64,000 nucleotides of DNA from a bacterium (lineage in GTDB: Bacteria; Pseudomonadota; Alphaproteobacteria; SP197). Within the stretch, counting starts at the first letter, position 1, and every line of letters starts with the position of its first letter. The stretch covers positions 1 through 64,000 of the forward strand of contig JAPPGE010000071.1 of assembly GCA_028821455.1 (NCBI GenBank), in the 5' to 3' direction. A program made the position numbers and the translations under genes. Shown here one piece after another: positions 2,195 through 63,730 of this stretch. Under the pieces are notes generated by a model, which made no database searches, was not told the origin of the DNA, and worked only from the letters and a program-made list of their open reading frames with translations.

Positions 2195-2688
2195 GTCGTT
2201 TCTCCCCGGTCGGCGTGCGACAACAGCAACCCGCCGGATTCTGTGGTTTCCGATGCGGCAGGAATGCGCCGCACTCTTCCTCGAACATGCCCGATGTTAG
2301 TGCAGGCACGCCGGCGCAGGCCACTGCGACCGTTGCTCCTGCAGCGTGTTCGCTCCATCGTTCCACATCAGTCCATGCCGATGACCATGGTGCGCATGTT
2401 GGGACCTCTCTCCGTCGGTTGGCTCGCATTCTGAGCCGGGTGTCGCCCGCTCCCGGAACTGCCGCACCATACCGACCCAAGATGACACCAGTGATGTCGG
2501 GAGTGGATGGCCGTTGTCCGGCACGGGACATTGACCTCTTGTCGTCGAGCAGGGTCAACAGTTCAGCGTGCCGGTCGACGTCCAGATCATGCGCCACGTG
2601 AATTCGGGTACCGATGGCGACGGGCCCGTCGTCTTGACGGGGCGCAAGCTCGGATTCCAAGCTCCGGGAGCCTTTGGGAGACACCGTC
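2195..2688. other. Divergent intergenic region, no gene recognised
   Basis: These 494 bases separate the divergently transcribed ureohydrolase and Rieske oxygenase. Open frames run through them in several phases, as expected at this GC content, but none has a convincing ribosome site or family resemblance. The region must hold the promoters of both flanking genes; no clear -35/-10 pair was picked out. Confidence 0.5.
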
Positions 2689-3825
2689 ATGACGGACGGC
2701 ATGGCCACGGTACGCACGGCGCTCCGGCGCGCTCTGGCAAGCAGCCACCACGAGGCCCGGGCTATGCCGGCGCCTTTCTACACCGACCCGGAACTTGCGA
2801 CCCTCGAGGTGGAGCACCTGTTCAAGAAGGAATGGCACTGTGTCGGCCGCGTTGAGGAGGTCGCCGAGCCGGGCCGGTTCATGCCCTACCGCCTGGCGAA
2901 CGAACCGCTGGTCATCGTGCACGGCCGCGACGGGGCGATTCGGGCGCTGTCGAACGTCTGCCGACACCGCGGCACCCTGATCGTCCGCAAGAAAGACCAG
3001 GGCCACCGTCTGGTGTGCCCCTACCATCACTGGTCCTACGAACTCGACGGCCGTCTTGCCGCGGCGCCGAGAATCCCGGAACGCGAGGATTTCCGCATCG
3101 CCGATTGCCGTCTTCCGGAATTCCCCTGCGAGGTCTGGATGGGCTTCGTCTACGTCAACCTTGATCCCGCCGCCCGGCCGCTTGCACCGCAACTTGCCGA
3201 CCTCGAGGCATTGGTCGCACCGTACCACATGGAGGAGATGTGGCTGGGCTGGCTCGGCGAGGAGGTCTGGGAGACCAACTGGAAGGCCATGGTGGAAAAC
3301 TACATGGAGGGCTACCACCTCACGCCGCTCCACAAGAACACGCTCCACAACCTCAATCCCACCAGTCTCGCCAGGCATATCCCGGCGTGCGAGCACTGGT
3401 TCGGCTACGAGGTCGGCTTTCCCGAGGACCTGCCGCGCGTGACGGCGGGTCATCCCGACCTGACAAGAAAACAGTCCAACACCTGCATCATGGCGATGGT
3501 GCAGCCGGGCAGCGGCATCGGGCTCGCCGCAGACTACAGTTCGTTCCTCTGCCTGCAGCCCGAGGGCACGGACAGGGTGCACTACAAGGCAGGCATCCTC
3601 TTCTGGGGGGACGCATGGCCCCAGGGCGCGGTCGACCGCGCGGTCGAACTGTTCCACAAGACCATGGCCGAGGACCGCTCCGTGCTGGAGCCGATGATGC
3701 AGGGCTACCGCAGCGCCCACCACGAGAGCGGCCCACTCGCGCCACCCTCGCTGGAGGGCCCGATTCTCGATCTGGCCCGGTATGTCGGTCGTCGCCTGCT
3801 GCCGACGATGGACGGGGCTGCATGA
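2689..3825 (+). CDS. Rieske [2Fe-2S] oxygenase, alpha subunit (betaine/choline monooxygenase type)
   Basis: A 378-residue ring-hydroxylating-type oxygenase large subunit. The Rieske cluster site is CRHRG (C91, H93) with CPYHHW (C110, H113). The catalytic domain shows the mononuclear iron site ENYMEGYHLTPLH (H210, H215) and the C-terminal AEDRSVLEPMMQG segment. The ENYxExYH pattern and single-subunit size are typical of the GbcA/choline-monooxygenase/stachydrine-demethylase group, which oxidatively removes methyl groups from quaternary amines, rather than of classic aromatic dioxygenases. The ATG at 2689 has GGGAG 8 bases upstream. No ferredoxin or reductase gene is beside it, so the electron donor must be encoded elsewhere. 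Confidence 0.88.
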   Translation: MTDGMATVRTALRRALASSHHEARAMPAPFYTDPELATLEVEHLFKKEWHCVGRVEEVAEPGRFMPYRLANEPLVIVHGRDGAIRALSNVCRHRGTLIVRKKDQGHRLVCPYHHWSYELDGRLAAAPRIPEREDFRIADCRLPEFPCEVWMGFVYVNLDPAARPLAPQLADLEALVAPYHMEEMWLGWLGEEVWETNWKAMVENYMEGYHLTPLHKNTLHNLNPTSLARHIPACEHWFGYEVGFPEDLPRVTAGHPDLTRKQSNTCIMAMVQPGSGIGLAADYSSFLCLQPEGTDRVHYKAGILFWGDAWPQGAVDRAVELFHKTMAEDRSVLEPMMQGYRSAHHESGPLAPPSLEGPILDLARYVGRRLLPTMDGAA

Positions 3826-18173: not shown

Positions 18174-20110
18174 CACAGGCTCCACGCGGCCTCGAGTCCC
18201 TCGAGAACCGCTTCCTCGGCGCTTCTCGGGACGAGGCAGTCGCCGATCCGCACGAAGGGCCAACCAGCAGCCTCGAGACCCAGACCGAGATCGTCGTACG
18301 GAACAGAACCAAGTGACAGCACCAGGGAATCCATTTCCTCGAGCATGATCGCCTCGCCCGTCAGCGTGTCCTGGAAGTAGGCCACGTCATCGTCGGCGCC
18401 AAAGAGACGCGCGTGGGTGATGATGTCGACGCCCAGTCGGCGCAGCCGCCCGACATGGTGGTTGCGGACATAGAGCTGGAGAAGTTCCCCTGCCATGGCG
18501 CCATTGACCACGAGACGCACCCTGTGGCCTGCCTCGGCCAGCCTTTCCGCCAGGCCGGGCCCGGTCCAGTCGGCGCGTCCGTCGGCAATCACGACGGAAT
18601 GCCCGACATTGGCGCCGTCGAGCAGTGCGATGGCTTCCACGACATGGGCCTCGCCCTCGATGGGCGGCCTCCACGGCCGGGCGCCGGTGGCCACGATGAC
18701 CGCGTCGGGTTCGCACTCTTCGACGAGGCGGGGGGTCACCGTCGATCCGGTGCGGATCTCCGCGCCCGCGCTGCGGGCCTCGCGTTCGAGATTCTGCACC
18801 AGACCGCCGAACTCCGCGCGGCCGGGAAGCATGGCGGCATGAGACGCCTGTCCCCCCGGCACGCCCCCTGCCTCGTGCAACGTGACACGGTGCCCTCGCG
18901 CGGCGGCCACCGCCGCCGCCTTGAGCCCGGCCGGACCGCCGCCGGCCACCATCACGGACCGAACGACACGGGAAGGGAGATACGTGCCATAGCGGCGTTC
19001 GCGCCCGGAGGCGGGATTCTGGATGCAGGAGATGGCAACGCCCTTGTGCGAGTGCCCGATACAGGCCTGGTTGCAGGCAATGCAGGCACGAATATCGTCA
19101 AAGCGCCCCTCCCGCGCCTTCAGAGCCATGGCGGGATCGGAGATCATCGCCCGGGTCATGCCGCACAGATCCGCATCGCCTGATGCCAGGATGCCCTCGG
19201 CGATCTGCGGCTGGTTGATGCGCCCGGTGGCGATCACCGGCAATCCGGAGGCCTCCTTCACCCGCCTGGCAAGGGGAGCGATATAGCCCGCCGGAATGCC
19301 CATGGGGGCAGCGATATGGATCGAGGCACCGAGTGTCGACGACATGCCGGCGACGACGCTGATGTAGTCGAGGCGGTGCGCCAGGGCCCTTGCGATGGCT
19401 TCGACATCATCGGCGGTGAGGCCCTGGGCCGGGTCGAGTTCGTCGCCGGAAATCCGCATGCCGAGCGCCGCATCACCGATTGTGGCACGCATCGCCGACA
19501 ATGTTTCCTCGACGAATCGAAGGCGCCTGTCGAAGGACCCTCCCCATGCATCATTGCGGAGATTGAGCCGGGGGTTGAGAAACTGCGCCGGCAGGTAACC
19601 GTGGCTGGCGACCAGTTCCACACCGTCGAGACCGGCCTCGGCGAGATAGCCGGCTCCCCGGGCGAATCCCTCGATCACCTCCTCGATAAGAGCGCCGGAC
19701 ATGGCCCGCGGCATGATGTGAAAGCGCTCGTTGGCCACCGAACTTGGCGCGACAGCGGTGGCCATGAGACCATCGGTGCGAACCTGGATTTCCCGGCCCG
19801 GGTGAAACAACTGGCCGAAGAGCCGCGTTCCGTGCCGTTGCACCGCACCGGCGAGGTGGCGGTATCCCGGAACACAGTCCGCCGAACGGGCATCGAGACA
19901 GTTGCCGGCAAAGACGCCGGTGTCGTGGACGGTGGCGATCTCGACGACGATGAGACCGGCGCCGCCTTCTGCCCGTGCTTCGTGGTAGGCCACGAGATCG
20001 TCGCTCACCAGGCCGTCGGCAAGATGGGTGTGATGACCGGTGAAGACGATCCGGTTGCGGATCTCCGTCCTTGCGATCGTCACGGGCGAAAACAGGTGGG
20101 GCAGCGTCAT
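18173..20110 (-). CDS. OYE/TMADH-type flavin Fe-S oxidoreductase (dienoyl-CoA reductase / N-demethylase family)
   Basis: A 645-residue fusion of an FMN old-yellow-enzyme barrel (residues about 1-340), a [4Fe-4S] site CIACNQACIGHSHKGVAISC, and a C-terminal FAD/NAD(P) module starting at VMVAGGGPAGLKAAAVA. Relatives include trimethylamine and dimethylamine dehydrogenases, N-methylproline demethylase and FadH. Being sandwiched by 4- and 1-base overlaps between an MttB-family methyltransferase and a ThDP enzyme points to a methylated amine or betaine as substrate rather than a fatty acid. Confidence 0.88.
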   Translation of the reverse strand: MTLPHLFSPVTIARTEIRNRIVFTGHHTHLADGLVSDDLVAYHEARAEGGAGLIVVEIATVHDTGVFAGNCLDARSADCVPGYRHLAGAVQRHGTRLFGQLFHPGREIQVRTDGLMATAVAPSSVANERFHIMPRAMSGALIEEVIEGFARGAGYLAEAGLDGVELVASHGYLPAQFLNPRLNLRNDAWGGSFDRRLRFVEETLSAMRATIGDAALGMRISGDELDPAQGLTADDVEAIARALAHRLDYISVVAGMSSTLGASIHIAAPMGIPAGYIAPLARRVKEASGLPVIATGRINQPQIAEGILASGDADLCGMTRAMISDPAMALKAREGRFDDIRACIACNQACIGHSHKGVAISCIQNPASGRERRYGTYLPSRVVRSVMVAGGGPAGLKAAAVAAARGHRVTLHEAGGVPGGQASHAAMLPGRAEFGGLVQNLEREARSAGAEIRTGSTVTPRLVEECEPDAVIVATGARPWRPPIEGEAHVVEAIALLDGANVGHSVVIADGRADWTGPGLAERLAEAGHRVRLVVNGAMAGELLQLYVRNHHVGRLRRLGVDIITHARLFGADDDVAYFQDTLTGEAIMLEEMDSLVLSLGSVPYDDLGLGLEAAGWPFVRIGDCLVPRSAEEAVLEGLEAAWSL

Positions 20111-21636
20111 GGCGGATGGACGGCGTCCGGCTGCAGGTAAATCGGAAAGCGCTCGCGCAGGTGCCGGTCGAGCGCCCGGGAAAAGTGCCCCGTCCGGTGA
20201 TCCCGGAGGATCCGCCGGGCTTCATGGCGTGCCCTTTCCCGGATGTCGAGCGCACCGGCCTCCTCCCATGCGCCGGGCGGTTGCCGGTCCGCCAGGCGGG
20301 GGTAGAGGTAGTCCCGGGTCATGGCGCCAAGAGTCTGGGAGTGGCCCAGATAGTGGCCTTCTCCGGTCACCACCTCGTTCACGGTATCGACCGACAGCGT
20401 GTCGTCGTTGACCTCGATACCGCGGACGGTCCGCATGATGGCGCCGAGCATGTCGTTGTCGATGATGTAGCTCTCCGGAGCAGCGCCGAGCAGACTTGCG
20501 TGCATGCCGCAACTCTGGGTGATCATGGAACAGCCCGCTTGGGCGGCGAGGGTGACGGCACAGGCCTTCTCATAGCCGGACTGGGCATCGGGGACCTTGG
20601 CATCCGTGATGCCGGCCATGACGCTGCACGGCAGGCCGTAGTGACGCGCCATCTGGGTTGCGGCGGCAGCAGCGACCGCCTGTTCGCCGCTGCCACCGCA
20701 CATGGCCCCGGTGCGCAGGTCCGAGACCAGGGGCTTGGGCCCGATGATGGCGACGCAATCGGGATCGATGAGGTGGCAATACACCAGGCCGGCAAGCGCC
20801 TCGGCCACCGCCTGGGCCACCGCACCTGCCAGGGTCGCCGGGGCCGTGGCGCCGGCCTGTCCGGCGGAGACCAGCATCACAGGCATGCCGAGAGGTATGG
20901 CCCGTTCGAGAACCCACAAGGCCTCCTCGGCAAAGCGAAGGGGCGGTACCACGTGGCACGAGAGCAGCATGGCAAAGGGCTTTTGGCGATACCGTCCCTC
21001 ACCGCCGGCAATGGCGTCGAACAGCCCGACGACAGCCTCGACATTGCGGGCTTCGGTGATGCTCGTCCCGACATGCTTGGCGGTGCCGGCGAGGATGGCG
21101 TAGGCCGTGTTGATGTCGAAGGCGAGCGGATCCTCGATGTCGCAGGCAACGAGCGAGCGGTCGTAGAAGTGGATGTTCTCGAGGGTATCGACGATGCGGG
21201 CGACGTCGTGGAGATCCCGCACCGTGGCGCTCCGGTAGCGTCCCGTCTCCAGATCGACGATGTTGGGCGATGCACCGCCGGATCCGAAATGGACCCGTCC
21301 GTCGGCAATGTCGAGATCATGTTCGCGGGTCTGCCCCCAGGCGACGAAGGAGCGCCGGCTGCAACGCAGCACCTCCTCGACGAGGGTTGCCGGAAAGTGG
21401 AGCCGTCCGTTGCCACAGACCCTGCCGCCCCTTTGGGTGACGCGCTCGACCATCGGGGGAATGGCGCCCGAGAACCCGACTTCCTCCATGAGGCGCATCA
21501 CGCAGCGATGGATCGCCGTCACATCACTGTCAGACAGCGGTCTGTAGCAACCGCCCGGACAACCGGGCGACACCGCGGCAACCGGCGCCTGACGGCGCTC
21601 CTCCATGCGGCGGTCACGACCGCGCCGCCGGGTCAT
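20107..21636 (-). CDS. Trimethylamine methyltransferase (MttB) family protein, non-pyrrolysine
   Basis: A 509-residue MttB-superfamily methyltransferase. The gene reads through without an in-frame amber codon, so it is the non-pyrrolysine class whose characterised members act on glycine betaine, proline betaine, carnitine and similar quaternary amines and pass the methyl to a corrinoid protein. Conserved stretches include GSGGASPNIVDLETGRYR and GAMCGGSGEQAVAAAA. GGGAGG lies 12 bases before the ATG at 21636. No corrinoid protein (MttC type) or RamA-like activase is adjacent, so partners must be elsewhere or the role differs. It overlaps the downstream demethylase by 4 bases. Confidence 0.87.
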   Translation of the reverse strand: MTRRRGRDRRMEERRQAPVAAVSPGCPGGCYRPLSDSDVTAIHRCVMRLMEEVGFSGAIPPMVERVTQRGGRVCGNGRLHFPATLVEEVLRCSRRSFVAWGQTREHDLDIADGRVHFGSGGASPNIVDLETGRYRSATVRDLHDVARIVDTLENIHFYDRSLVACDIEDPLAFDINTAYAILAGTAKHVGTSITEARNVEAVVGLFDAIAGGEGRYRQKPFAMLLSCHVVPPLRFAEEALWVLERAIPLGMPVMLVSAGQAGATAPATLAGAVAQAVAEALAGLVYCHLIDPDCVAIIGPKPLVSDLRTGAMCGGSGEQAVAAAAATQMARHYGLPCSVMAGITDAKVPDAQSGYEKACAVTLAAQAGCSMITQSCGMHASLLGAAPESYIIDNDMLGAIMRTVRGIEVNDDTLSVDTVNEVVTGEGHYLGHSQTLGAMTRDYLYPRLADRQPPGAWEEAGALDIRERARHEARRILRDHRTGHFSRALDRHLRERFPIYLQPDAVHPP

Positions 21637-40377: not shown

Positions 40378-41265
40378 ATGAGCCGGACGGCGGACCGACT
40401 GAAGACGACCCCGTTGCATCCCGAGTTTGGCGTGGAGGTGCACGATGTCGACTTGCGCGATGTCACAGCGGATCGCATGTACCCGGCAATCCGTGCCCTG
40501 TTCGAACGGCATTCGCTGTTGCTGTTCGCCGAACAGCACCTCGACGACCGGGAGCACCTCGCCTTCGGTCGACTGTTCGGGCCCATCGAAGACCGTTCCA
40601 ACACGCGCATGGATGGCAAGCCGCGCATATCCTACGGCGTCAGCAACGAGACCGAAGATGGCGGCGTCTGTGATGAAGACGACCTGCGCCTGCTCGGCCT
40701 GAAAGCCAACATGCTTTGGCACACCGACAGCACCTTCCTGCCGACACCCGCATTGGCCAACGTGCTGCAGGCACGAGTCGTTCCACTGAAGGGCGGTGCC
40801 ACCGAATTCGTTTCGACCAGAGCCGGGTTCCGGGCGCTCGAACCCGCCATGCAGCAACGTCTGCGTGGCATGACATTTCGCCATCGCTACAGCCACTCGC
40901 GAGCCCGCATCGATCCGGACCTGGCCAAACTGGACCTCTTCACCATGTGGCCGGATACCGAATGGCGCGCGGTGTGGCGCAATCCGGCGACCGGCGCCGA
41001 GGCGGTCTATGTCGCTTCCCATGCCTTTGCTGCGAGCGACATGGACGAGGACGAGGGCCAGACGTTCATCGACGATCTGATCGAACGCATGACCGGGCCG
41101 AGCCATGTCTATGCCCATCACTGGCGTCCGGGAAACGTGCTGGTTTGGGATGAGCGCGCCACTTTGCACCGCGGCACATCCTGGCCCTACGATCAGGCGC
41201 GGACGCTGGTAAGCTGCTGCATATCGGCCGGTGAGGGCGATGGCCTGTCCACGATGCGTCCATGA
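40378..41265 (+). CDS. TauD/TfdA-family Fe(II)/2-oxoglutarate dioxygenase
   Basis: A 295-residue TauD-type oxygenase. Iron ligands are in WHTDSTF (His, Asp) and near the end in ERATLHRGTSW (His), with an Arg shortly after for 2-oxoglutarate (YDQARTLV). The family oxidises sulfonates, phenoxyacetates, betaines and other polar compounds by hydroxylation, often releasing an aldehyde. It starts an operon with a CodA-like amidohydrolase (4-base overlap). The start signal is weak. Confidence 0.85.
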   Translation: MSRTADRLKTTPLHPEFGVEVHDVDLRDVTADRMYPAIRALFERHSLLLFAEQHLDDREHLAFGRLFGPIEDRSNTRMDGKPRISYGVSNETEDGGVCDEDDLRLLGLKANMLWHTDSTFLPTPALANVLQARVVPLKGGATEFVSTRAGFRALEPAMQQRLRGMTFRHRYSHSRARIDPDLAKLDLFTMWPDTEWRAVWRNPATGAEAVYVASHAFAASDMDEDEGQTFIDDLIERMTGPSHVYAHHWRPGNVLVWDERATLHRGTSWPYDQARTLVSCCISAGEGDGLSTMRP

Positions 41266-42593
41266 ATGAGGGCACCCCACGGCAGCTGTTGTCGGCGCAG
41301 ACGGGCCAGCCCTTTGCCCTGCGCAACCTGCGCCTCCCCCAGGGAACGGTGCCGAAGGCCGGCCTGCCGCAGGTTGGCGACGGCTTGCTGGGCGCCGACA
41401 TGGTGATTGCCGATCGGCACATCGACTGGCTTGGTCCGCCGGCAAGCCGCGACGACCTGCCGGACGGCCTCGACATGGCCAGGGTCATGGCCTGGCCGGG
41501 GCCGGTCGATTGCCACACCCACCTGGACAAGGCGCTGGTGTCGCAGCGCTCGCCGAATGCGGACGGCACGTTCGACGGCGCCGCGGCCAGCGCCAGTCGG
41601 GATGCGGCCGCCTATCACTGCGCAGACGATATCCGGCAAAGGGCCAGCTTTGCACTCAGCACGGCCTTTGCCCACGGCACCACGGCAATCCGAAGCCATG
41701 TGGATGCCGGCCGTTCCTCGTTCGGCGAGGCCTTTGCCACCCTCTGCGAGCTGGCCGATGACTGGCGCGATCGGATTACGCTCCAGGTCTGCCCCTTTGT
41801 GGGCATAGAGGAGGACCTTGACTGGGTTCGCGACGTGGCGGAACGGGCACGCCACGATCATTCCGGTATCCTGAGCGTCTTCGTGCCTGCGAATTCGGAA
41901 CTCGATCGCGCGCTCGACAACGTCATGGCGATCGCCGGGCGTTACGACCTGCAGCTCGACCTACATGCCGACGAGATTCTCGATCCGGAATCCAGGGGCC
42001 TCGACGCCATCGCCAGAGCGGTGTTGCGCAACGGATTCGACCGACCGGTGCTGGTCGGGCATTGCTGCGCCCTGTCGGTGCAGCCGCCACAGATGCTCGA
42101 CCGCACGCTTGAGCGGGTGGCGAAGGCCGGAATCGGCGTCGTCTCGCTGCCGCTTTGCAATGCCTATCTCATGGATCGCCGGACCGGCGAAACGCCGCGG
42201 TATCGCGGCTGCGCTCCGGTGCACGAGATGCGCAAGCACGGCATTCCGGTGGCCATCGCTTCGGACAACGTGCGTGACGCGTTCTACGCATACGGCGATC
42301 ACGATGTCCCGGAACTCTTTCGCGATGCCGTACGCATGATGCAGCTCGATCATCCGCTCGGCGACTGGGCGATGGCCGTGACGACGACCGCGGCAGACCT
42401 CATGGGTCTGCCCGGTCGCGGCAGACTGGAACCAGGCGCACCGGCCGATCTCGTCCTCTTCACTGCGCGCAACTGGGGCGAGTTCATCTCCCGTCCGCTG
42501 TCGGATCGCATCGTCCTGCGCGATGGATATCCCATCGATGCAACCCCGCCGGACTATCGACACCTGGACGATGTGAAAGGAGTGCGGATATGA
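41262..42593 (+). CDS. Cytosine deaminase-like amidohydrolase
   Basis: A 443-residue metal-dependent amidohydrolase of the CodA/AtzF-like group. Metal and catalytic motifs are DCHTHLDKAL, LHADEI, VGHCCALS and ASDNVRDAFY, in family order. CodA deaminates cytosine, while close relatives act on creatinine, isocytosine or s-triazines. It is coupled by 4-base overlaps to the TauD gene before it and the FAD dehydrogenase after it. Confidence 0.83.
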   Translation: MNEGTPRQLLSAQTGQPFALRNLRLPQGTVPKAGLPQVGDGLLGADMVIADRHIDWLGPPASRDDLPDGLDMARVMAWPGPVDCHTHLDKALVSQRSPNADGTFDGAAASASRDAAAYHCADDIRQRASFALSTAFAHGTTAIRSHVDAGRSSFGEAFATLCELADDWRDRITLQVCPFVGIEEDLDWVRDVAERARHDHSGILSVFVPANSELDRALDNVMAIAGRYDLQLDLHADEILDPESRGLDAIARAVLRNGFDRPVLVGHCCALSVQPPQMLDRTLERVAKAGIGVVSLPLCNAYLMDRRTGETPRYRGCAPVHEMRKHGIPVAIASDNVRDAFYAYGDHDVPELFRDAVRMMQLDHPLGDWAMAVTTTAADLMGLPGRGRLEPGAPADLVLFTARNWGEFISRPLSDRIVLRDGYPIDATPPDYRHLDDVKGVRI

Positions 42594-43999
42594 GCCACAT
42601 CGAGGCGCTCACGGAGAGAATCGGCGACATCCCGATCACCACGCGTGCGAACGTGGTCCGCGGGAAGAGTCGCGATTCGTTCTGGTATTCGCCGGTTCTC
42701 AAGGAGAAGCTCAAGGACGTTACGGCGGAAGCCGTCGTCTCGCCGCGCAACGAGGAGGAACTGCTGCGGGTTCTGGCTGCATGCTGGGCGCTGGACATTC
42801 CGGTCACCCCGCGAGGCGGCGGCACCGGAAACTACGCCCAGGCGGTGCCACTGGCAGGCGGCGTCGTGCTGGACTTGAAGCCGATGAACCGAATCAAGTC
42901 GATCGGCGAAGGCGTTCTCGTTGTCGAGCCTGGAGCCGTGTTGAGCAGGATCGAGGCGGAAACGCGCGAACACGGCGGGCAGGAGCTGCGCATGCATCCG
43001 TCGACGCGTGAAACCGCGACCATCGGCGGCTTCATTGCCGGCGGCTCGGGCGGCGTCGGATCGATCCGCTGGGGCATGCTGCGTGAGCCCGGCAACATCT
43101 TGCGCCTGCGCCTGGCGACCCTCGAGGAACAACCTCGTCTGATCGACGTGACAGGCGATGACGTTGCGATCGTCCATCATTCCTACGGCGTGAACGGCAT
43201 TATCACCGAGGTTGAACTGCCCCTGGCGCCGGCCCAGAACTGGGTCGAACTGCTGGTCTCCTTCGACGACTGGTTGACTGCGGTGCGGGCGGGCTGGGCG
43301 GTCGCCCATCATGAAGGACTGTGGCTGAAACAGCTCGCGGCCGTTCAGGCACCGGCTCCCTACAAGTACTTTGCGCGCCATCGCAAGCTCCTGCGGGAGA
43401 GCGACAACCTGCTGTGCATCCTCGCCGCACCAAACGCCGTGCAACCGCTGCTCGACCTGCTGCAGAACGATGGGGGTCGCGTCGCCTTTCACTCTGACAG
43501 GGCAAGTGCCGAAGACAAGAAGGGTCTGCCGCACCTCTATCATTTGACCTGGAACCACACGACCCTGCTGGCGCTGAAGAACGACCCCGCAATGACCTAT
43601 CTGCAGCTCGGCACGCCGGAGGAGGATCCGATTGGCGCGGTGGAGGAAATCGCGCAACGCTTTCCTGGCGAAATCATCGGTCACGTCGAATACGTGCGGG
43701 CCGCAGGACGTCTCCATGCCAGTCTGCTGCCGCTTTACCGCTACAGCAGCGAGGCGCGCCTGACGGAGGTCATTCGGAACCTCGAAGCCATGGGCTGCCC
43801 CTGCTACAACCCGCATGTCTACACTTACGAGGAAGGCAATCACTGCGATGCGGACCAGGCACGGCTCGATCTGAAGAGACGCACCGACCCGAAGGGGCTC
43901 CTGAATCCCGGCAAGATGATCGGCTGGGAAGACCCCGAGTACTCCTATGATCCGTCCGGCAGCTACGAATACGCCGGCCTGCGCAGGGCTGCACCATGA
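42590..43999 (+). CDS. FAD-binding (PCMH/VAO-type) dehydrogenase, GlcD-like
   Basis: A 469-residue flavoprotein with an N-terminal PCMH FAD-binding domain (TPRGGGTGNYAQAVPLAGG; TIGGFIAGGSGGVGSIRWG) and a C-terminal cap ending LKRRTDPKGLLNPGK, as in glycolate/lactate and alditol oxidases. The substrate is presumably a 2-hydroxy acid or an amine intermediate made by its operon partners. It overlaps both neighbours by 4 bases (ATGA). Confidence 0.85.
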   Translation: MSHIEALTERIGDIPITTRANVVRGKSRDSFWYSPVLKEKLKDVTAEAVVSPRNEEELLRVLAACWALDIPVTPRGGGTGNYAQAVPLAGGVVLDLKPMNRIKSIGEGVLVVEPGAVLSRIEAETREHGGQELRMHPSTRETATIGGFIAGGSGGVGSIRWGMLREPGNILRLRLATLEEQPRLIDVTGDDVAIVHHSYGVNGIITEVELPLAPAQNWVELLVSFDDWLTAVRAGWAVAHHEGLWLKQLAAVQAPAPYKYFARHRKLLRESDNLLCILAAPNAVQPLLDLLQNDGGRVAFHSDRASAEDKKGLPHLYHLTWNHTTLLALKNDPAMTYLQLGTPEEDPIGAVEEIAQRFPGEIIGHVEYVRAAGRLHASLLPLYRYSSEARLTEVIRNLEAMGCPCYNPHVYTYEEGNHCDADQARLDLKRRTDPKGLLNPGKMIGWEDPEYSYDPSGSYEYAGLRRAAP

Positions 44000-44385
44000 G
44001 AAGCCTGACTCCCGCAGCGATTCAGCCGCCCTTCGCGGCCTACTCCCACGGCGTCGAGGCCAGGGCCCGGCATTTGGTGGTCACCTCCGGCCAGCTCGGT
44101 ATCGGACCGGAAGGGACCATCCCCGAAACGGCCGAGGCACAAGCCAGGGTCTGCTTCGAGAACATCGACGCGATACTGGCCGAGGCCGGTGTCACCCGCG
44201 AACACATCGTACGGCTCAACGCCTACGTGACCGATCGCGCCCACATGGCCGGCTACATGGCGGCCCGTGACGCCTATCTGGCAAACAGGCCGGACAATCC
44301 GGCCTCCACGCTCATGATCGTCTCGGGATTCAGCAGGCCGGAGTTTCTCGTCGAAGTCGAAGCCATCGCCGCCAAGGAGGACTAG
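43996..44385 (+). CDS. RidA/YjgF family protein
   Basis: A 129-residue RidA-family protein. It shows the family's VTSGQLGIGPEG, the ARVCFENIDAILAEAG helix and the active-site-like end of RPDNPASTLMIVSG. The usual arginine that marks imine deaminases (as in CVEV-A-x-R proteins) is not clear at the C-terminus, so it may belong to an Rid subfamily with a different task. In pyrimidine (RutC) and other nitrogen pathways Rid proteins hydrolyse reactive enamines, aminoacrylates or carbamates, matching this operon. Confidence 0.85.
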   Translation: MRSLTPAAIQPPFAAYSHGVEARARHLVVTSGQLGIGPEGTIPETAEAQARVCFENIDAILAEAGVTREHIVRLNAYVTDRAHMAGYMAARDAYLANRPDNPASTLMIVSGFSRPEFLVEVEAIAAKED

Positions 44386-44386
44386 G

Positions 44387-45181
44387 ATGCCGAGCAGACG
44401 TTTCTGGCGTGAGATGCCAACCACCGAATTCGACGGCGATACCTCCGAATGGATCGCCGTTCTGCCGCTAGCCGCGATCGAGCAGCACGGGCCGCACCTG
44501 CCGGTCGGCGTCGATGCCCTTATCGCCGAAGGCATGGTCGAACGCTGCGCCGCTGCTTTGCCGATGGACAGCCCCGTCACATTCCTGCCATTGCAGGAGA
44601 TCTGCAAGTCCAACGAGCACCTTGGATTTGCCGGAACGCTGACTCTGGACTGGGACACGACGGTCCACAGCTGGCTCGAAATCGGAGAGTCCGTCGCGCG
44701 GGGTGGCGTCCGGAAGTTCGTCCTTGTCACCAGCCATGGAGGCAACGTCCACCCGATGGAGATCGTCGCGCGCGAACTGCGGGTCAGACACGGCATGCTC
44801 GTAGTCACCACGAGCTGGTCGCGCCTCGGCAAGTGGCAGGAAATCTACGACTATGGTCCTGTCTTCACGGATATCCATGGCGGCAACAGCGAAACCTCGG
44901 TTATGCTGGCACTGCGCCCCGATCTGGTTGACATGTCCAAGGCCGAAGACTTCGACAGCACGCAGTCGGACATGAAGGCGCGTCACCAACGCGTCGGCTA
45001 CCACGGATCGGATGCGAACATTGCCTGGATGTCGCAAGACCTGAATCCCGAAGGCGTAGTGGGCGACGCCTCAGCAGCATGTGCCGACAAGGGCGAACGG
45101 GACGTCGCGTCCATGGTTGCCGGCTTCTGCGAACTGATGAAGGAAGTCGAGGCAACCGCGCCACCCAAGTCGAGGACGTGA
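44387..45181 (+). CDS. Creatininase-family amidohydrolase
   Basis: A 264-residue creatinine amidohydrolase-family protein. Metal-binding motifs are EQHGPHLPVGVD, TSHGGNVHP and DIHGGNSETSVM. Members open creatinine, hydrolyse formamides (ArfB/FAPy hydrolase) or form peptide-like bonds in cofactor biosynthesis (MftE). It begins 1 base after the Rid gene. With dihydropyrimidinase and the CodA-like enzyme it makes a third cyclic-amide hydrolase in 7 kb. Confidence 0.86.
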   Translation: MPSRRFWREMPTTEFDGDTSEWIAVLPLAAIEQHGPHLPVGVDALIAEGMVERCAAALPMDSPVTFLPLQEICKSNEHLGFAGTLTLDWDTTVHSWLEIGESVARGGVRKFVLVTSHGGNVHPMEIVARELRVRHGMLVVTTSWSRLGKWQEIYDYGPVFTDIHGGNSETSVMLALRPDLVDMSKAEDFDSTQSDMKARHQRVGYHGSDANIAWMSQDLNPEGVVGDASAACADKGERDVASMVAGFCELMKEVEATAPPKSRT

Positions 45182-57367: not shown

Positions 57368-57781
57368 TCACCTGTCGTCCAGGCGACCGCTGCCTCGCGC
57401 GTGGCGGACAAGCGAATCGTCGGTATCGAACCACGCAAGGGCCGCCTCATGCCAGACATGCCGGGCGGGCGGCAGGGAATCGGGATCGTCACAGGTCCCC
57501 GTAAAGAAGTGGATTTCACCGGGGGCTTCGTCCGATTCGTAGGTCAGCGGCGTGCCGCAGGAAGAGCAGAACCCTCGCCTGACACCGGGCGAGGACTTGT
57601 GGATGGCCCGATGGCCGGCGGTGAAGGTCACGGACGAGGCGGTTGCCCCGACAAAGGCGGCAACGGGAGCGCCGGTAGCGCGCCGGCAACTCCGGCAGTG
57701 ACAGTAGGCCGTCCACAGCGGCGGTGCATCGATGCAATACCGCACGGCGCCGCACAGGCACCCTCCGCTGATCGGCGGCAT
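57368..57781 (-). CDS. GFA/DUF636-family zinc protein
   Basis: A 137-residue GFA-fold protein with zinc cysteines in GGCLCGAVRY, AYCHCRSCRRATG and GFCSSCGTPLTYES. It is the last gene of the minus-strand operon, 3 bases after the TauD gene. In an operon of oxygenases that may release formaldehyde, a GFA-like protein makes sense, but whether this protein binds formaldehyde or glutathione is unproven. Confidence 0.85.
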   Translation of the reverse strand: MPPISGGCLCGAVRYCIDAPPLWTAYCHCRSCRRATGAPVAAFVGATASSVTFTAGHRAIHKSSPGVRRGFCSSCGTPLTYESDEAPGEIHFFTGTCDDPDSLPPARHVWHEAALAWFDTDDSLVRHARGSGRLDDR

Positions 57782-57784
57782 CGA

Positions 57785-58657
57785 TCAGTCGATCCCTGAC
57801 AGGACCTGCGGCAGGCCGCGCACGCTGATCCGCCAGAGAAGGCGGGAGTTCTCCGGCGACGTGGCAAATGCGATGGGGCTCGCCGCATGCATCGTCTGCA
57901 GGGTATCCCAGATGACGAGATCGCCCGGACGATAGTGGTGGCGGTAGATATGTTGCTCGCGCAAGGCATGAGCCTTCAGCGAGTCGAGCAACGCGCCGGC
58001 CTCCCCGGAGGCCATGTCCCTGATGGCGTAGGCTCCGTGACCGATTGCATAGAGTGCCTTCCTGCCGGTGACCGGATGGCGCATCACCAGTGGGTGATGG
58101 ACCGGTGGCACCCGGCGGTCCTGGTCGTCGTTGATGATCGGGTTGACCGCGGCTTCGCCCGCAATGCGGCGGCCACGCCCGTACTTGTGCGCCACCTCGA
58201 GGGAATCGATCCTCTCCCTGGTGGCGGCGTCAAGGGAATCATAGGCGCCCGCCATGTCGCAGAACTGTGTTTCGCCGCCTTCCCGGGGCGCCAGGATCGA
58301 ATAGAGCATGGTGACGCTTGCCGGCACCTCCTCGTAAGACTGGTCGGTGTGCCACAGAGCGGCGCCGTTGCGGATCTTGGCGTCCCTGTCCCGCTCTTCG
58401 GTGTTGCCCACTGTCATGAGCTCGGGATAGCCGTCCATGCGCATGTGGTCGAGGACATGGGGGATGGGATCGCCCCACAGCCTGCCGAACCGGAGAAACC
58501 GGTCCTTGTCGAGATTCTGGTCCCTGATGACGATGACGCGATGGGCATGAAGCGCGTCCACGAGGGTGCGCATGACCGGCTCGGCGAAGTCGTCGGCAAG
58601 CCGGACTCCGTGAATCTCCGCTCCGAAGGCCGCATCGAGCGGCGTCAACGTCACCAT
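57785..58657 (-). CDS. TauD/TfdA-family Fe(II)/2-oxoglutarate dioxygenase
   Basis: A 290-residue TauD-type oxygenase. Iron ligands in ALWHTDQSYEEVP (His, Asp) and near the C-terminus in LQTMHAASPI (His); an Arg (LLWRIS) follows for 2-oxoglutarate. It is the sixth gene of the operon, 49 bases after the cysteine hydrolase. Substrates in the family include taurine, phenoxyacetates and quaternary amines. It differs from the TauD protein at 40378. Confidence 0.86.
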   Translation of the reverse strand: MVTLTPLDAAFGAEIHGVRLADDFAEPVMRTLVDALHAHRVIVIRDQNLDKDRFLRFGRLWGDPIPHVLDHMRMDGYPELMTVGNTEERDRDAKIRNGAALWHTDQSYEEVPASVTMLYSILAPREGGETQFCDMAGAYDSLDAATRERIDSLEVAHKYGRGRRIAGEAAVNPIINDDQDRRVPPVHHPLVMRHPVTGRKALYAIGHGAYAIRDMASGEAGALLDSLKAHALREQHIYRHHYRPGDLVIWDTLQTMHAASPIAFATSPENSRLLWRISVRGLPQVLSGID

Positions 58658-58706
58658 GGAAGCCTCCAGGACGGAACGCTACCGTGAAGTGACACCGGCG
58701 ACAATG

Positions 58707-59402
58707 TCAGCGCTCGCGATGCGCCGTTCCAAGAGCCTCGATGACATCGTCGCTCTTCGCGAGAGTTCCGAAGACGCCACCGGACGAGCGGATGAGGTCG
58801 ATGGCAGCGTCATGTCGCCGCTGGCTTGCCGCGGCCGTGCAGTCTTCGACGACCACGCATTCGATGCCGCGATCCAGGGCCTCGCGCAGGGTCGACGTGA
58901 CACAGCAGTCGGTTGTGAGCCCGACCAGGATCGCCGCCCGGATGTCCCGCGCCCGAAAATCAGCGTCGATCGCGGTCGTTGCGAAGACCCCGTAGCTTGC
59001 CTTGTCGAACACGTCCTCGCTTGGTGACGGCGCGAGTTCGTCGATGATGTTCCACCCCTCCTCGCCACGGACGAGCGCCCGTCCCAGAGGTCCGGTGCTG
59101 CCGATCGCCTCGTTGGCGGCGCCGCCAACCTTCCAGGGCTGCAGGTCCGAGAGATCCGGCGCGTAGCCCTCGCGCGTGTGCATGATCGTAAGCCCGCACC
59201 GCCGCGCCGCGCCGAGGACACGGCGAATCGGCTCGACGGGTTGTTTCAGGCGCTCCAGATCGACCCCGAGACGATGCATGTAGCCATTCTCCGCACAGAA
59301 ATCCCGCTGCATGTCGATGACAAGAAGCGCCGTGCGCGATGGCTCGAGGGCGCCCCGTTGCGGAAAGGGCAGCGGGACGCCGGCAACGACCGACATGGTC
59401 AC
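58707..59402 (-). CDS. Isochorismatase-family cysteine hydrolase
   Basis: A 231-residue cysteine hydrolase. The triad is visible: Asp in LLVIDMQRDF, a Lys in the DKASYGVF segment, and the Cys in GLTTDCCVTSTLREAL. Relatives include ureidoacrylate hydrolase (RutB), biuret hydrolase and N-carbamoylsarcosine amidohydrolase. The latter acts on a betaine/creatinine-pathway intermediate, which is of interest beside an oxidative amine operon. It overlaps the NIPSNAP gene by 4 bases. Confidence 0.86.
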   Translation of the reverse strand: MTMSVVAGVPLPFPQRGALEPSRTALLVIDMQRDFCAENGYMHRLGVDLERLKQPVEPIRRVLGAARRCGLTIMHTREGYAPDLSDLQPWKVGGAANEAIGSTGPLGRALVRGEEGWNIIDELAPSPSEDVFDKASYGVFATTAIDADFRARDIRAAILVGLTTDCCVTSTLREALDRGIECVVVEDCTAAASQRRHDAAIDLIRSSGGVFGTLAKSDDVIEALGTAHRER

Positions 59403-59734
59403 GACCGGCGGACGGGGGGCGGGAAGAAGCTGGCCGGCGTCATGAGACGGTTCTCCTGGCTCACCAGGGCACCGAGTTCGGCGCTCCGGGCCAGGTAGTC
59501 CTGCCAGTCGGAATCCGCCTGCATCGCCTGCCGGCGCGCCTCGCGGTCACCGGCATTCTCGTAGACCCAGATGTGGACGAACTGGTTGGGATTGCCGGTC
59601 TCGGTGACCAGCCATGCCAAGGGCTGTCCAAGGTGCCTCGTCTGCGGTTCCTTGCCGAAAGCCTCATAGAGCTCCATGTGTCGTTTCAGCATGCCGGGAC
59701 GGCAGGTGTAGGTTCGCACGTCAAGCAGCATCAT
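59399..59734 (-). CDS. NIPSNAP family protein
   Basis: A 111-residue dimeric ferredoxin-like barrel protein of the NIPSNAP family: start LLDVRTYTCRPGMLKRHMELYEAFG, central VHIWVYENAGDREARR. The family is of unknown enzymatic role and often found beside catabolic genes. It overlaps the TmpB-like gene by 14 bases upstream and the cysteine hydrolase by 4 downstream. Confidence 0.8.
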   Translation of the reverse strand: MMLLDVRTYTCRPGMLKRHMELYEAFGKEPQTRHLGQPLAWLVTETGNPNQFVHIWVYENAGDREARRQAMQADSDWQDYLARSAELGALVSQENRLMTPASFFPPPVRRS

Positions 59735-60311
59735 GCGTCTCCTTGTTCTGGCTTCGCCGGTGTTCCTCCACCAGGCTCTCGATGATCGGGACGAAATGAA
59801 AAAATCCTGGTGTCTTCATGCCGGGCCGCTTCCCGGCGTCATCCAGGAGTCGTACGGCGATGATGTCGCCGAGATGCGGGTGTTGGGCAAACTGCTCGGC
59901 CTCGTGTGCCTCCATCGGGCCGCCCTGGAGGGAAAGCGAATGGCGCGACGCGTCACTCAACCTCTCCAGGTAATCACGCCTGGTGGCCGAGAGATAGCGC
60001 TTGGCAGCCACGTGGTGGCGTATGCAGTCGGTCACGACGGCGGGAAAGAAACGCTCCACCAGTCGGGCGCCGGCCACCTCGTGGTGTCGGTCGCGGGTGT
60101 CTGTCATGGAGAACATCCCGGAATCGCCCGCGATATGGCCGATATCGTGAAGCAGCGCCCCGACAATGACCGCGTTCTTTCTGCGGCTTCTCTGGGCAAG
60201 GGTGGCGCTCTGCAGCATGTGTTCGGCGATCGTCACGTCCTCGCCAAGGTATTCGACGGTCGCCACGTCTTCGAAGATGGCAGCCAGGCAATCGATGATC
60301 GCCTGGGCCAT
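59721..60311 (-). CDS. HD-domain diiron oxygenase, PhnZ/TmpB-like
   Basis: A 196-residue HD protein. Beyond the HD signature (LLHDIGH, H55-D56) it has the spacing known for PhnZ: Y21-x2-E24, then H31, later H77, H100 and a D-D pair near 156, matching (as I recall) the mixed-valent diiron oxygenases PhnZ and TmpB rather than nucleotide phosphohydrolases. PhnZ cleaves 2-amino-1-hydroxyethylphosphonate; TmpB cleaves the trimethylated analogue to glycine betaine and phosphate. The ATG at 60311 shares one base with the stop of the 2-oxoglutarate oxygenase upstream (TGATG). No phosphonate transporter is in the window. Confidence 0.82.
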   Translation of the reverse strand: MAQAIIDCLAAIFEDVATVEYLGEDVTIAEHMLQSATLAQRSRRKNAVIVGALLHDIGHIAGDSGMFSMTDTRDRHHEVAGARLVERFFPAVVTDCIRHHVAAKRYLSATRRDYLERLSDASRHSLSLQGGPMEAHEAEQFAQHPHLGDIIAVRLLDDAGKRPGMKTPGFFHFVPIIESLVEEHRRSQNKETHDAA

Positions 60312-61441
60312 CAGACCGGCTCCCGCGATGTTGCCTGCATCAATGCCTCGTGAGTCGAGCGCAGCCCGTCCATGTCCGCATAGCAGCCCTGGAGCCAGCG
60401 GTTGCCGGCGCCTGTCCACGCCGTGCGTCCGTGAAGAACGCGGGTGTTGTCGACAACAAAGCACTCGCCGGGTTCCAGGCGGAACGAGATCGCCATCAAC
60501 GGGTCGTCGACGATGTCGCCGAGGTGCCGGTAGGCGGCATACCACATGGCCATGCGCTCGAAGGGCACATCCCTCACTGCCGCCAGGGACCGGTTGTTGA
60601 AACGCACGCACCGGAGTTCTCCATCCGGCGCCAGTTCGATCAGCGGACGGCGGGCGGCGAGTGAGACACCCTCCTCGCCGTCAAACGCGAAGCGTGCACA
60701 GTGATCGGCGAGCACATCGAAGTGATCCGGGTTCTCCTCCTGCAAGCGGCGGACGGCGGCAAACCCGTCAATGACCATGCTGTCGCCTCCGGTAAGCGAA
60801 CTCTCGAGACAGTAGAGCACCTGAACCGTCGGCACCGGGTCCCGGTAGGGATTGTCGGTATGGGCCTGAAGGGCACGTCCCGTATTGGCAAGATTCACCG
60901 GGTTCACTTGTGTACGGACATCGAAGTGACGGCCATAGTTGGTCTCCCTCACGTGACCGAAGAGATTGACGATGCGAAAGAGCGCGCCGGGCGCCACCGG
61001 CCCGTTGATCACCCGCGCCACACCATAGTTCCGGACGCAGCCCAGCCAGTCGCGCAGCGCCGCGCCGCGCATCTCCAGGTCCCCAAGGTTTGCGACCGGC
61101 ACCTCGCCCAGCCGGGAGCCTGTCCACGTGGTGATTGTCGGTTCCGTCCAGCCACGCCCGTCAACCCCCGACTGGTCGTAGGCATTCCGCTCGAGCCAGG
61201 ACAGGTCGAAGGCGATCGCCCTCATCTCCGGGGCGAAGTTGACCATGAGTGTGGTGTCGCTGACGGCCGCGGAGGCAATGCGAAGATCGGACGGGATGGC
61301 GCCCGGTGCAATCAGCCGCTGACCATTGCCGGGGTCGCGGGTCTCGGGATCGGCCGCATTGTCGCGCAGCCAGATGGCGTGGAAGCGCCTGGACCCCAGG
61401 GTCAGGAATGTCCCGGAGGCATCGACACTGACGTCCGTCAT
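60311..61441 (-). CDS. Gamma-butyrobetaine hydroxylase-like 2-oxoglutarate oxygenase, TmpA-like
   Basis: A 376-residue oxygenase with an N-terminal GBBH-type domain (HAIWLRDN at 21-28) and a TauD-fold catalytic domain. Iron ligands H194 and D196 (LQAHTDNPYRD) and H337 (RVLHGRT); R348 in the RWLQGCYAD signature binds 2-oxoglutarate. Family members hydroxylate gamma-butyrobetaine or trimethyllysine; with a PhnZ-type partner the close relative is TmpA, which hydroxylates 2-trimethylaminoethylphosphonate. The Cys residues that make a zinc site in human GBBH (NCPCPSC) are absent here. ATG at 61441 overlaps the aminotransferase stop by 4 bases; 61450 is an alternative. Confidence 0.82.
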   Translation of the reverse strand: MTDVSVDASGTFLTLGSRRFHAIWLRDNAADPETRDPGNGQRLIAPGAIPSDLRIASAAVSDTTLMVNFAPEMRAIAFDLSWLERNAYDQSGVDGRGWTEPTITTWTGSRLGEVPVANLGDLEMRGAALRDWLGCVRNYGVARVINGPVAPGALFRIVNLFGHVRETNYGRHFDVRTQVNPVNLANTGRALQAHTDNPYRDPVPTVQVLYCLESSLTGGDSMVIDGFAAVRRLQEENPDHFDVLADHCARFAFDGEEGVSLAARRPLIELAPDGELRCVRFNNRSLAAVRDVPFERMAMWYAAYRHLGDIVDDPLMAISFRLEPGECFVVDNTRVLHGRTAWTGAGNRWLQGCYADMDGLRSTHEALMQATSREPV

Positions 61442-62736
61442 GACAGGCAACCGGCGTCACATTCCCGGGCAAGGCGGCCGATGGCGTCTTCCATTGCGTC
61501 AATCGTACGGGTGATGTCCTCGTCGTCGATAGCCGTGGAGACGTAGATCTTGGAGTCCGCCTTGAGAACGCCATTCTCCATGAGGAGAGCGTTGAATCGC
61601 TTCAGCATCGCGGCATTGCCAGCCAGCATGTCGCAGTGATTGCTGACGGCGCCATGGGTGAAGACGACATCGAAAAGAGGAGGTTCGCCGACCACCCGGG
61701 CATCGATCCCGTTGGCGGCCAGGATCCTTTCGAGGGCCGCCATCAGGCGCCGGCCCGTGTCGAAGAGGCGCTCGAAGGTGCCGGGACGGGACAGGACGCC
61801 GAGCGTTGCCAGACCGGCCACGGACGCCACGGGATTGCCGGAGAGTGTGCCGACCTGCGGCACGAAGCGCCCGGTGCCGGCCTGCTCGCTGTCAAAGGCG
61901 GCCATGATGTCCTCGCGTCCGGCAATGGCTGCAAGCGGGAAGCCGCCGCCGATCACCTTGCCGAGCGTACACAGGTCCGGAACGACACCGTAGTACTCCT
62001 GGGCCCCGCCCATGCCCAGCCGGAACCCCGTGACCACCTCGTCAAACACGAGGAGCACATCGTGTTCTCGTGTCAGGTCCCGCAAGGCGGCGAGGAATCC
62101 CGGCTGCGGCGAGATCAGCCGCTGCATGGGTTCAAGGAACACCGCTGCGATCTCGGATCCGTACTCCCTCAAGAGACTTTCCACCGCACCTGCATCGTTG
62201 AACGGCGCCACAAGGACCGTGTCCCTCACCGCGTCGGGAATGCCCGCGGAATCGGGAATCGGGCGGGGCGAGTTGCCGGGCGTCTTCGGCGCGAGGCTCA
62301 TCAGTGCGTAGTCGCTGTAGCCGTGGTAGCCGCCCTCGAACTTGAGGATTCTCGGACGCCCCGTATGGGCACGGGCAAGGCGCATGGCAAAGGCATCAGC
62401 CTCGGAACCCGTGCTCGTAAAACGAACCTTTTCGGCAACCGGCACGGCGTCGATGATGGCTTCAGCCAGCGCAATGCCCTCGGGATTGCTGGCGAAGAAC
62501 GTCGTCCCTGTCTCGAGCTGGCCGCGCACCGCGCTCGTGACCTCGGGATGGGCATGCCCGATGAGCATGGGGCCCGATCCGATGAGATAGTCGATGTATT
62601 CGCGGCCCTCGTCATCCCACACGCGGCTGCCGCTGCCCCGGGCAATGACGAGATCTTTGGAGACGTTGCCGAACGTGCCGCCGGGAAGAGCCCTCGCCGC
62701 TCTCTGGCGGATAGACGACTGCACACTCTGCGTCAT
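61438..62736 (-). CDS. Class III aminotransferase (glutamate-1-semialdehyde aminomutase-like)
   Basis: A 432-residue PLP enzyme of aminotransferase class III. The cofactor Lys is in TLGKVIGGGFPLAAIAG and the nearby FDEVVTGFR is the usual pyridine-binding Asp. The start ALPGGTFGNV and GSGPMLIGHAHPEV resemble HemL, but HemL genes rarely sit in oxidative operons, so an omega-amine or amino-acid:2-oxo-acid role is likelier. It is the first gene of the TmpAB-like operon. The ATG at 62736 is preferred to 62784 because the family start follows it. Confidence 0.84.
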   Translation of the reverse strand: MTQSVQSSIRQRAARALPGGTFGNVSKDLVIARGSGSRVWDDEGREYIDYLIGSGPMLIGHAHPEVTSAVRGQLETGTTFFASNPEGIALAEAIIDAVPVAEKVRFTSTGSEADAFAMRLARAHTGRPRILKFEGGYHGYSDYALMSLAPKTPGNSPRPIPDSAGIPDAVRDTVLVAPFNDAGAVESLLREYGSEIAAVFLEPMQRLISPQPGFLAALRDLTREHDVLLVFDEVVTGFRLGMGGAQEYYGVVPDLCTLGKVIGGGFPLAAIAGREDIMAAFDSEQAGTGRFVPQVGTLSGNPVASVAGLATLGVLSRPGTFERLFDTGRRLMAALERILAANGIDARVVGEPPLFDVVFTHGAVSNHCDMLAGNAAMLKRFNALLMENGVLKADSKIYVSTAIDDEDITRTIDAMEDAIGRLARECDAGCLS

Positions 62737-62824
62737 GCCTGCCACCGCGATCGTGCCGACTCCAGGGGGCACGATATCGACCAATCCGTGCTACACAAGA
62801 GGCAAGACGAGCCCAGGGCCCCGC

Positions 62825-63730
62825 ATGACGTCCCTCCCCCTCGCCCTCTACGATGCCTTCAGCGACACCGCATTCGGGGGCAGCCAGGCCGCCGTCGTTT
62901 CCAACGCGGGATCCCTGGGCGACGCCACCATGGCGCGGATCGCCGGCGAACTCGGGTACCCCGCCGTGTGTTTCGTCGGCGCCACGGGCGAGGAACGCGT
63001 CGAGGCGCGATTCCGTTCGACGGTCATGGAGCTCCCGATGTGCGGCCATGGCACCATCGCCCTCATGACACGCTTGATCGAGCAGGGTTACGTCACCATG
63101 CCCTCCAGGATGGAACTTCACCTTCCTGGCTCCCGGACCCACGTCACCATCTCGGCCGGAATGGGAGGCAGGCCGCTGGTCATGCTCGAGGTCACCCCGC
63201 CCGCCTTCCGCCAGGATGATGTCGACAGGGGCCGCCTTGCCCGTCTCCTTGGTCTCGAGCCGGACATCATTGCCAGGGACCATCCCCTGGAAACCGTCTG
63301 TGGCGATTTCGTGCATCTCGTCGTGCCGCTGCCCGGTCTCGATGCCATGGAGCGTGTGCGTCCCGATTTTCCGGGACTCGTGGCCCTGTGCCACGACCAC
63401 GCAATAGAGACCGTGGCGCTCTTCACGACCGAAACGCTTGACCCCGCGTCGACGCTCCACGTTCGCGACTTCTGTCCCGCCGTCGGGGTGGCCGAGTCGG
63501 CTGCCGCGGGGACGACCAACGCCGCCCTTGCCAGCTACCTGGTACGCCACCGCATCGTGTCGCCGGACTCGGGCGCCCGTGTCGACGTCAGGGCCGAACA
63601 GGGTGTCGAGATCGGCCGGACAAGCAGGATTGTCACCTGTGCCCACATCGAAGACGATGCCGTCACAAGCATCGAGGTCGGTGGCGTGGCCACCAGGACC
63701 GTCGAGGGTCTGCTCCATCTGCCGCCATGA
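62825..63730 (+). CDS. PhzF family protein (diaminopimelate-epimerase fold)
   Basis: A 301-residue PhzF-like protein. N-terminal LYDAFSDTAFGGSQAAVV, the VMELPMCGHGTIAL core, a usual site of the conserved Glu and the CGHxT loop, and VCGDFVHLVVPLPG are typical. PhzF isomerises trans-2,3-dihydro-3-hydroxyanthranilate; most relatives have unknown tasks. It is divergent from the aminotransferase with about 88 bases between starts and overlaps the next gene by 4 bases. Confidence 0.83.
   Translation: MTSLPLALYDAFSDTAFGGSQAAVVSNAGSLGDATMARIAGELGYPAVCFVGATGEERVEARFRSTVMELPMCGHGTIALMTRLIEQGYVTMPSRMELHLPGSRTHVTISAGMGGRPLVMLEVTPPAFRQDDVDRGRLARLLGLEPDIIARDHPLETVCGDFVHLVVPLPGLDAMERVRPDFPGLVALCHDHAIETVALFTTETLDPASTLHVRDFCPAVGVAESAAAGTTNAALASYLVRHRIVSPDSGARVDVRAEQGVEIGRTSRIVTCAHIEDDAVTSIEVGGVATRTVEGLLHLPP

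Follow-up and report, generated by a model that had tools for sequence, protein, structure and literature searches.

The closest described relatives of the system studied here are two pairs of oxygenases that degrade phosphonates. TmpA and TmpB of Leisingera caerulea (PDB 6npb and 6npa; Rajakovich et al. 2019), described in PMC8177086 and PMC10574752, convert 2-trimethylaminoethylphosphonate (TMAEP) into glycine betaine and phosphate. PhnY and PhnZ, which act on 2-aminoethylphosphonate, share the same logic of C1 hydroxylation followed by C-P cleavage by an HD-domain di-iron oxygenase. We have analyzed a stretch of 64,000 nucleotides from an alphaproteobacterium (GTDB SP197; assembly GCA_028821455.1, contig JAPPGE010000071.1, positions 1 to 64,000), referred to as the window, in which an initial annotation had proposed a seven-gene operon built round a TmpA/TmpB-like pair. 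The main new fact is that this seven-gene operon is conserved and is restricted to one genus in a sponge-symbiont lineage.

The operon and its oxygenase pair

Seven open reading frames (ORFs) occupy positions 57368-62736 on the minus strand, each with a canonical Pfam domain, in the order Aminotran_3, TauD (GBBH type), HD, NIPSNAP, Isochorismatase, TauD and GFA from gene 1 to gene 7. Their junctions are -4, -1, -14, -4, +49 and +3 bp, the TmpA-like gene starting with ATG at 61441 and the HD gene, which overlaps it by 1 bp, with ATG at 60311. Coordinates, gene assignments, overlaps of 4, 1, 14 and 4 bases and gaps of 49 and 3 were all as initially described. The genes are as follows.

61438..62736, minus strand: aminotransferase, a class-III pyridoxal-phosphate (PLP) enzyme of the glutamate-1-semialdehyde 2,1-aminomutase (GSAM, HemL) branch, not GSAM itself (Pfam Aminotran_3; HemL cut-offs missed; residue losses)
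60311..61441, minus strand: TmpA-like Fe(II)/2-oxoglutarate hydroxylase (NF049936, match to 6npb, tree, HxD...H triad)
59721..60311, minus strand: TmpB-like HD-domain mixed-valent di-iron oxygenase (match to 6npa, tree, active-site set; NF049941 cut-off missed)
59399..59734, minus strand: NIPSNAP-family protein, accessory (PF07978, 83 bits; PDB relatives Atu4242 and others)
58707..59402, minus strand: isochorismatase-like cysteine hydrolase of the biuret-hydrolase branch (best PDB matches 6xjm and 6azo; below the BiuH cut-off)
57785..58657, minus strand: TauD-family Fe(II)/2-oxoglutarate dioxygenase (PF02668, 196 bits; HTD...H motif seen in the sequence)
57368..57781, minus strand: GFA-family zinc protein (PF04828, 90 bits; CxC...CxCxxC...CxxC pattern seen in the sequence)

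The product of gene 2 scored 529.9 bits on the NCBIfam TmpA model NF049936 (cut-off 400) and 357 bits on the gamma-butyrobetaine hydroxylase (GBBH) model TIGR02409, below its cut-off of 414.75. Its nearest solved structure is TmpA 6npb (E 1.5e-140), and a maximum-likelihood tree placed it inside a 21-row 100/100 clade with L. caerulea TmpA 6npb, human GBBH (hGBBH) standing outside. The Fe-ligand HxD...H triad is intact and the motifs HTDNPYRDPVP, RFNNRS and WLQGCYAD agree with characterised TmpA. Among the positions that we take, by their numbering and role in GBBH, to line the trimethylammonium cage (position 194, considered below, and others), Tyr177 and Tyr366 are kept and 181 is Phe, as in L. 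caerulea TmpA.

TmpB 6npa (234 bits, E 6.7e-69) is the closest solved structure to the HD protein, PhnZ reaching 117 bits. At each of the 13 active-site positions examined (Y, E, H, H, D, H, H, H, K, S, S, R, D), the residue is that of both PhnZ and TmpB 6npa. The di-iron ligands H..HD..H..H..D and the YxxE loop, whose roles are described in PMC8177086, are complete, and the Tyr-x2-Glu, His and His-Asp spacing of PhnZ noticed in the initial annotation is indeed kept. The window-type HD proteins fall in a 13-row 99/90 clade of the maximum-likelihood tree with L. caerulea TmpB 6npa. The HD protein therefore groups with TmpB and not with phosphohydrolases, and the oxygenase nests with TmpA and not with GBBH, the two placements that the initial annotation had named as contrary to its proposal.

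Conservation in a sponge-symbiont genus

The block was found in three further genomes of the window's genus (G385, G390 and G387). The last of these is bin56, a symbiont of the sponge Aplysina aerophoba (MPMV01000039.1; PMC5649159), and since bin56 is a congener, the window belongs to a sponge-symbiont genus. G385 and G390 carry all seven genes with the same junctions except for one gap (58 instead of 49), so that the gene order highlighted by the initial annotation is conserved, within this genus only. Pairwise dN/dS values against the congeners were 0.09-0.24 for the seven genes, indicative of purifying selection and thus of maintenance of each gene. These values, together with the same genes and junctions in congeners, indicate that the block is real and not due to chance. 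A literature search, covering open-access text only, recovered no such seven-gene arrangement and no extended tmpAB cluster.

In bin56, tmpA is disrupted near codon 190 by an integrase element and its halves lie on two contigs (L104 11865-13080; L082 9310-9969 and upstream). The element carries a tyrosine recombinase, recognised by eye from the sequence, and a 13-bp core, ACACCGGACGCGC, stands at both ends of the break. The dN/dS of the broken tmpA half was 0.36.

The distribution of tmpAB was studied in a sample of 385 genomes of the class, 14 of which exceeded the TmpB cut-off. Inspection of about 20 tmpAB neighbourhoods, with some gene names assigned by eye, revealed a two-gene unit with LysR, to which some neighbourhoods add PhnW/PhnA-like genes, an alkaline-phosphatase-family gene or ABC transporters. 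In these neighbourhoods, outside the genus, none of the five extra genes was found beside tmpAB. The taxonomic order of the window is represented in the collection by 16 genomes only, which makes the lack of intermediate forms weak evidence.

The operon-bearing congeners are without a second and more distant pair, TmpAB2, which four congeners that lack the operon possess. Remnants of this pair persist in G386 and G261, and intact copies occur only where the seven-gene operon is missing. In the genus and the family, TmpAB2 adjoins electron-transfer-flavoprotein and cobalamin-adenosyltransferase genes (L069-L076, L198, L083), and its HD protein has Tyr at the position of PhnZ His62.

The five further genes and the possible function of the operon

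The aminotransferase scored below both HemL cut-offs (PRK00062, 378 bits against 398; TIGR00713, 361 against 527). Trp67 is replaced by Ser and Glu406 falls in a gap, in the window and in every aligned subfamily member (53-64% identity); both residues have functional roles in GSAM. A HemL function was considered since the genome has no 5-aminolevulinate (ALA) synthase and no HemL above cut-off, and was abandoned because the catalytic residues are lost and a close orthologue occurs in only 4 of the 10 genus genomes. In the congeners G034 and G261, a homologue with 60% identity lies about 50 bp after a dimethylglycine/sarcosine-dehydrogenase-like gene. Neighbours at 82 aminotransferase loci, many of which are close relatives so that the counts are not independent, included cupin (15), enolase-superfamily (9), GFA (3) and TauD (2) genes, the enolase-superfamily members being what we take to be HpbD-like, that is, hydroxyproline-betaine-epimerase-like, proteins.

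The cysteine hydrolase has biuret hydrolase and a 'putative amidase' (6xjm, 6azo) as closest PDB matches and scored 248.5 bits on the BiuH model NF050097, below the cut-off of 370. In six genomes, five of them congeners and the sixth another member of the family, a homologue (65-69% identity) is located at the rplI ribosomal-protein locus, and no second copy was detected in the operon-bearing genomes at E <= 1e-45. A TauD gene and a BiuH-like hydrolase gene of G392 share a 4-bp overlap. Plasmid-borne homologues of the hydrolase neighbour amide and urea genes, while those of the NIPSNAP protein lie mainly amid sugar-acid genes or operons and therefore provide no phosphonate link. We read the operon as a lineage-specific assembly, in which an ordinary TmpAB module is joined to accessory nitrogen and one-carbon genes.

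On the sequence evidence, the core TmpA/TmpB pair probably acts on TMAEP or a close N-methyl analogue, with the five other genes as co-transcribed accessory catabolic genes. TmpA would hydroxylate C1 of TMAEP or of a close N-methylated aminoethylphosphonate, and the HD oxygenase would then cleave the C-P bond in an O2-dependent reaction, releasing phosphate together with glycine betaine or, from an analogue, the corresponding N-methyl glycine. The accessory genes would most probably help to recover nitrogen and one-carbon units from N-compounds of the host, alongside the use of phosphonate, and would not encode successive steps between phosphonate and betaine; an aminotransferase or an amidohydrolase could not act between TMAEP and betaine, because neither a primary amine nor an amide occurs there. 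The analysis demonstrates sequence homology, tree placement, retained active-site residues, a conserved operon and selection on its genes; the substrate, the reactions, co-transcription and the role of the five extra genes are predictions.

Several observations weigh against this assignment. The HD protein scored 259.3 bits on NCBIfam NF049941, below the TmpB cut-off of 300, and is called TmpB-like for this reason; the window-type clades have long stem branches in both trees (0.87 and 0.73), which probably account for the missed cut-off. The match to TmpA/TmpB claimed at the outset thus stands on the trees, the motifs and the TmpA cut-off, and falls short on that of TmpB. Cage position Tyr194 (hGBBH numbering), which is Tyr or Phe in human GBBH and most TmpA, is Asn in the window TmpA and Tyr in its three congeners G385, G390 and bin56, and hence a single-genome change within the clade. 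Neither a phosphonate transporter nor any other phosphonate gene was detected within the operon or next to it, and no Pho box was found nearby, matches in the window being at chance level, so that phosphate-starvation control was rejected. Finally, the tight overlaps and the uniform purifying selection suggest more coupling among the seven genes than the term accessory implies.

An alternative is a single extended route for a quaternary-amine phosphonate, the suggestion of the initial annotation. The products of all seven genes would then work one after another: TauD and GFA would demethylate the betaine and deal with formaldehyde, and nitrogen release would be completed by the aminotransferase and the amidohydrolase. 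The overlaps are exactly conserved in three genomes and all seven genes are under purifying selection. Elsewhere, the aminotransferase subfamily lies beside the dimethylglycine/sarcosine-dehydrogenase-like and HpbD-like genes, or adjoins GFA or TauD, and the TauD/BiuH-like overlap in G392 points in the same direction. However, the arrangement is not conserved in the tmpAB neighbourhoods outside the genus, relatives of the aminotransferase, the hydrolase and the NIPSNAP protein reside elsewhere without tmpAB, neither TMAEP nor betaine has a primary amine or an amide, and the operon contains no betaine-demethylating FAD or Rieske enzyme. We therefore consider this extended route unlikely, and the earlier suggestion is weakly supported. 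It is likewise unlikely that the operon encodes one undescribed catabolic route by which sponge symbionts degrade an N-modified aminophosphonate of their host, the TmpA/TmpB-like enzymes freeing phosphate and the amidohydrolase, the aminotransferase and the second dioxygenase freeing nitrogen and one-carbon units.

A shift of the pair towards an aminoethylphosphonate with fewer methyl groups or another N-modification, which the amidohydrolase and the aminotransferase would release or prepare, appears improbable. It would fit the long stems in both trees, the HD protein lying under the TmpB cut-off, the Tyr to Asn change in the cage and the presence of extra genes acting on amides and primary amines, but the Asn is confined to one genome and the three TmpA motifs and the YxxE loop agree with characterised TmpA/TmpB. 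A non-phosphonate substrate, with a GBBH-like carnitine enzyme next to an HD hydrolase, is very improbable: the TmpA-like protein is a GBBH homologue and the related bin56 has been assigned to a carnitine-metabolising symbiont guild (PMC5649159), but the score lies below the GBBH and above the TmpA cut-off, the trees and motifs are those of TmpA, the partner keeps the YxxE loop of HD oxygenases, and a carnitine/GBBH function was rejected on cut-offs and trees.

The surroundings of the operon and comparison with known systems

Upstream of the operon lie two further features.

62737..62824, no strand: divergent intergenic region of 88 bp (four-genome alignment; its inverted repeat is a candidate operator only)
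62825..63730, plus strand: PhzF-family isomerase, divergent neighbour (TIGR00654, 129 bits; start set by comparison with G385)

The inverted repeat, GCACG-13 nt-CGTGC at 62769-62791, has arms that are identical in the four genomes. No regulator was found in or beside the operon, no sigma-70-like promoter or intrinsic terminator within 57-63 kb, and no Rfam element. The divergent block, consisting of PhzF, a thiamine-diphosphate (ThDP) enzyme and an EamA transporter, is likewise retained next to the operon by the congeners G385, G390 and bin56 and is probably outside the route. PhnJ of the C-P lyase was not found in the genome, and three phosphonate-binding-protein matches above cut-off had no recognisable PhnC/PhnE adjacent (by eye, 1.5 kb each side).

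Clusters of cytosine-deaminase-, creatininase-, RidA-, GlcD-, hydantoinase-, hydantoin-racemase- and carbamoyl-hydrolase-like genes are located near the operon, here or in relatives (window 41262-45181; L086 13483-16110), and their hydantoinase resembles ErtD of ergothioneine utilisation (398 bits against a cut-off of 600). The window also contains a Rieske oxygenase with weak similarity to GbcA, a glycine betaine monooxygenase, and a homologue of the trimethylamine methyltransferase MttB; neither reaches its cut-off (2674-3825, 20107-21636). Regarding haem genes, an ALA synthase above cut-off is lacking in 9 of the 10 genus genomes, including the window's, and present in G034; the window genome has HemB, no HemL above cut-off, and a divergent HemA-like ORF between hisS and prfA (G000:C77:25033-25749, L201).

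These results place a C-P cleaving pair of the TmpA/TmpB type in a sponge-symbiont genus and tie it to conserved nitrogen and one-carbon genes, and host phosphonolipids and betaines would be plausible food for symbionts. If the extra genes are coupled to the pair, phosphonate breakdown would supply phosphorus, nitrogen and carbon together; if they are not, the operon would clearly exemplify how unrelated catabolic genes can be brought together within one lineage.

Compared with known systems, the aminotransferase has HemL as its closest solved relatives and shares their PLP lysine, and differs by its scores, Trp67 to Ser and the absence of Glu406. The published nearest PDB relatives of PbfA, the (R)-2-amino-1-hydroxyethylphosphonate (HAEP) ammonia-lyase, are gamma-aminobutyrate (GABA) and beta-alanine transaminases (PMC8154272), whereas those of the window aminotransferase are GSAM. 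The hydrolase, whose closest solved relatives are BiuH, is below the BiuH cut-off and lacks a neighbouring allophanate hydrolase or transporter. Despite the logic shared with PhnY/PhnZ, the HD protein is far nearer to TmpB than to PhnZ. The resemblance to TmpA/TmpB of L. caerulea extends to adjacent overlapping genes, both enzyme families, the metal, YxxE and sequence motifs and the clades. In contrast to the two-gene operon of L. caerulea, the pair forms genes 2 and 3 of seven, with an HD protein below the TmpB cut-off and, in the window genome, one changed cage residue.

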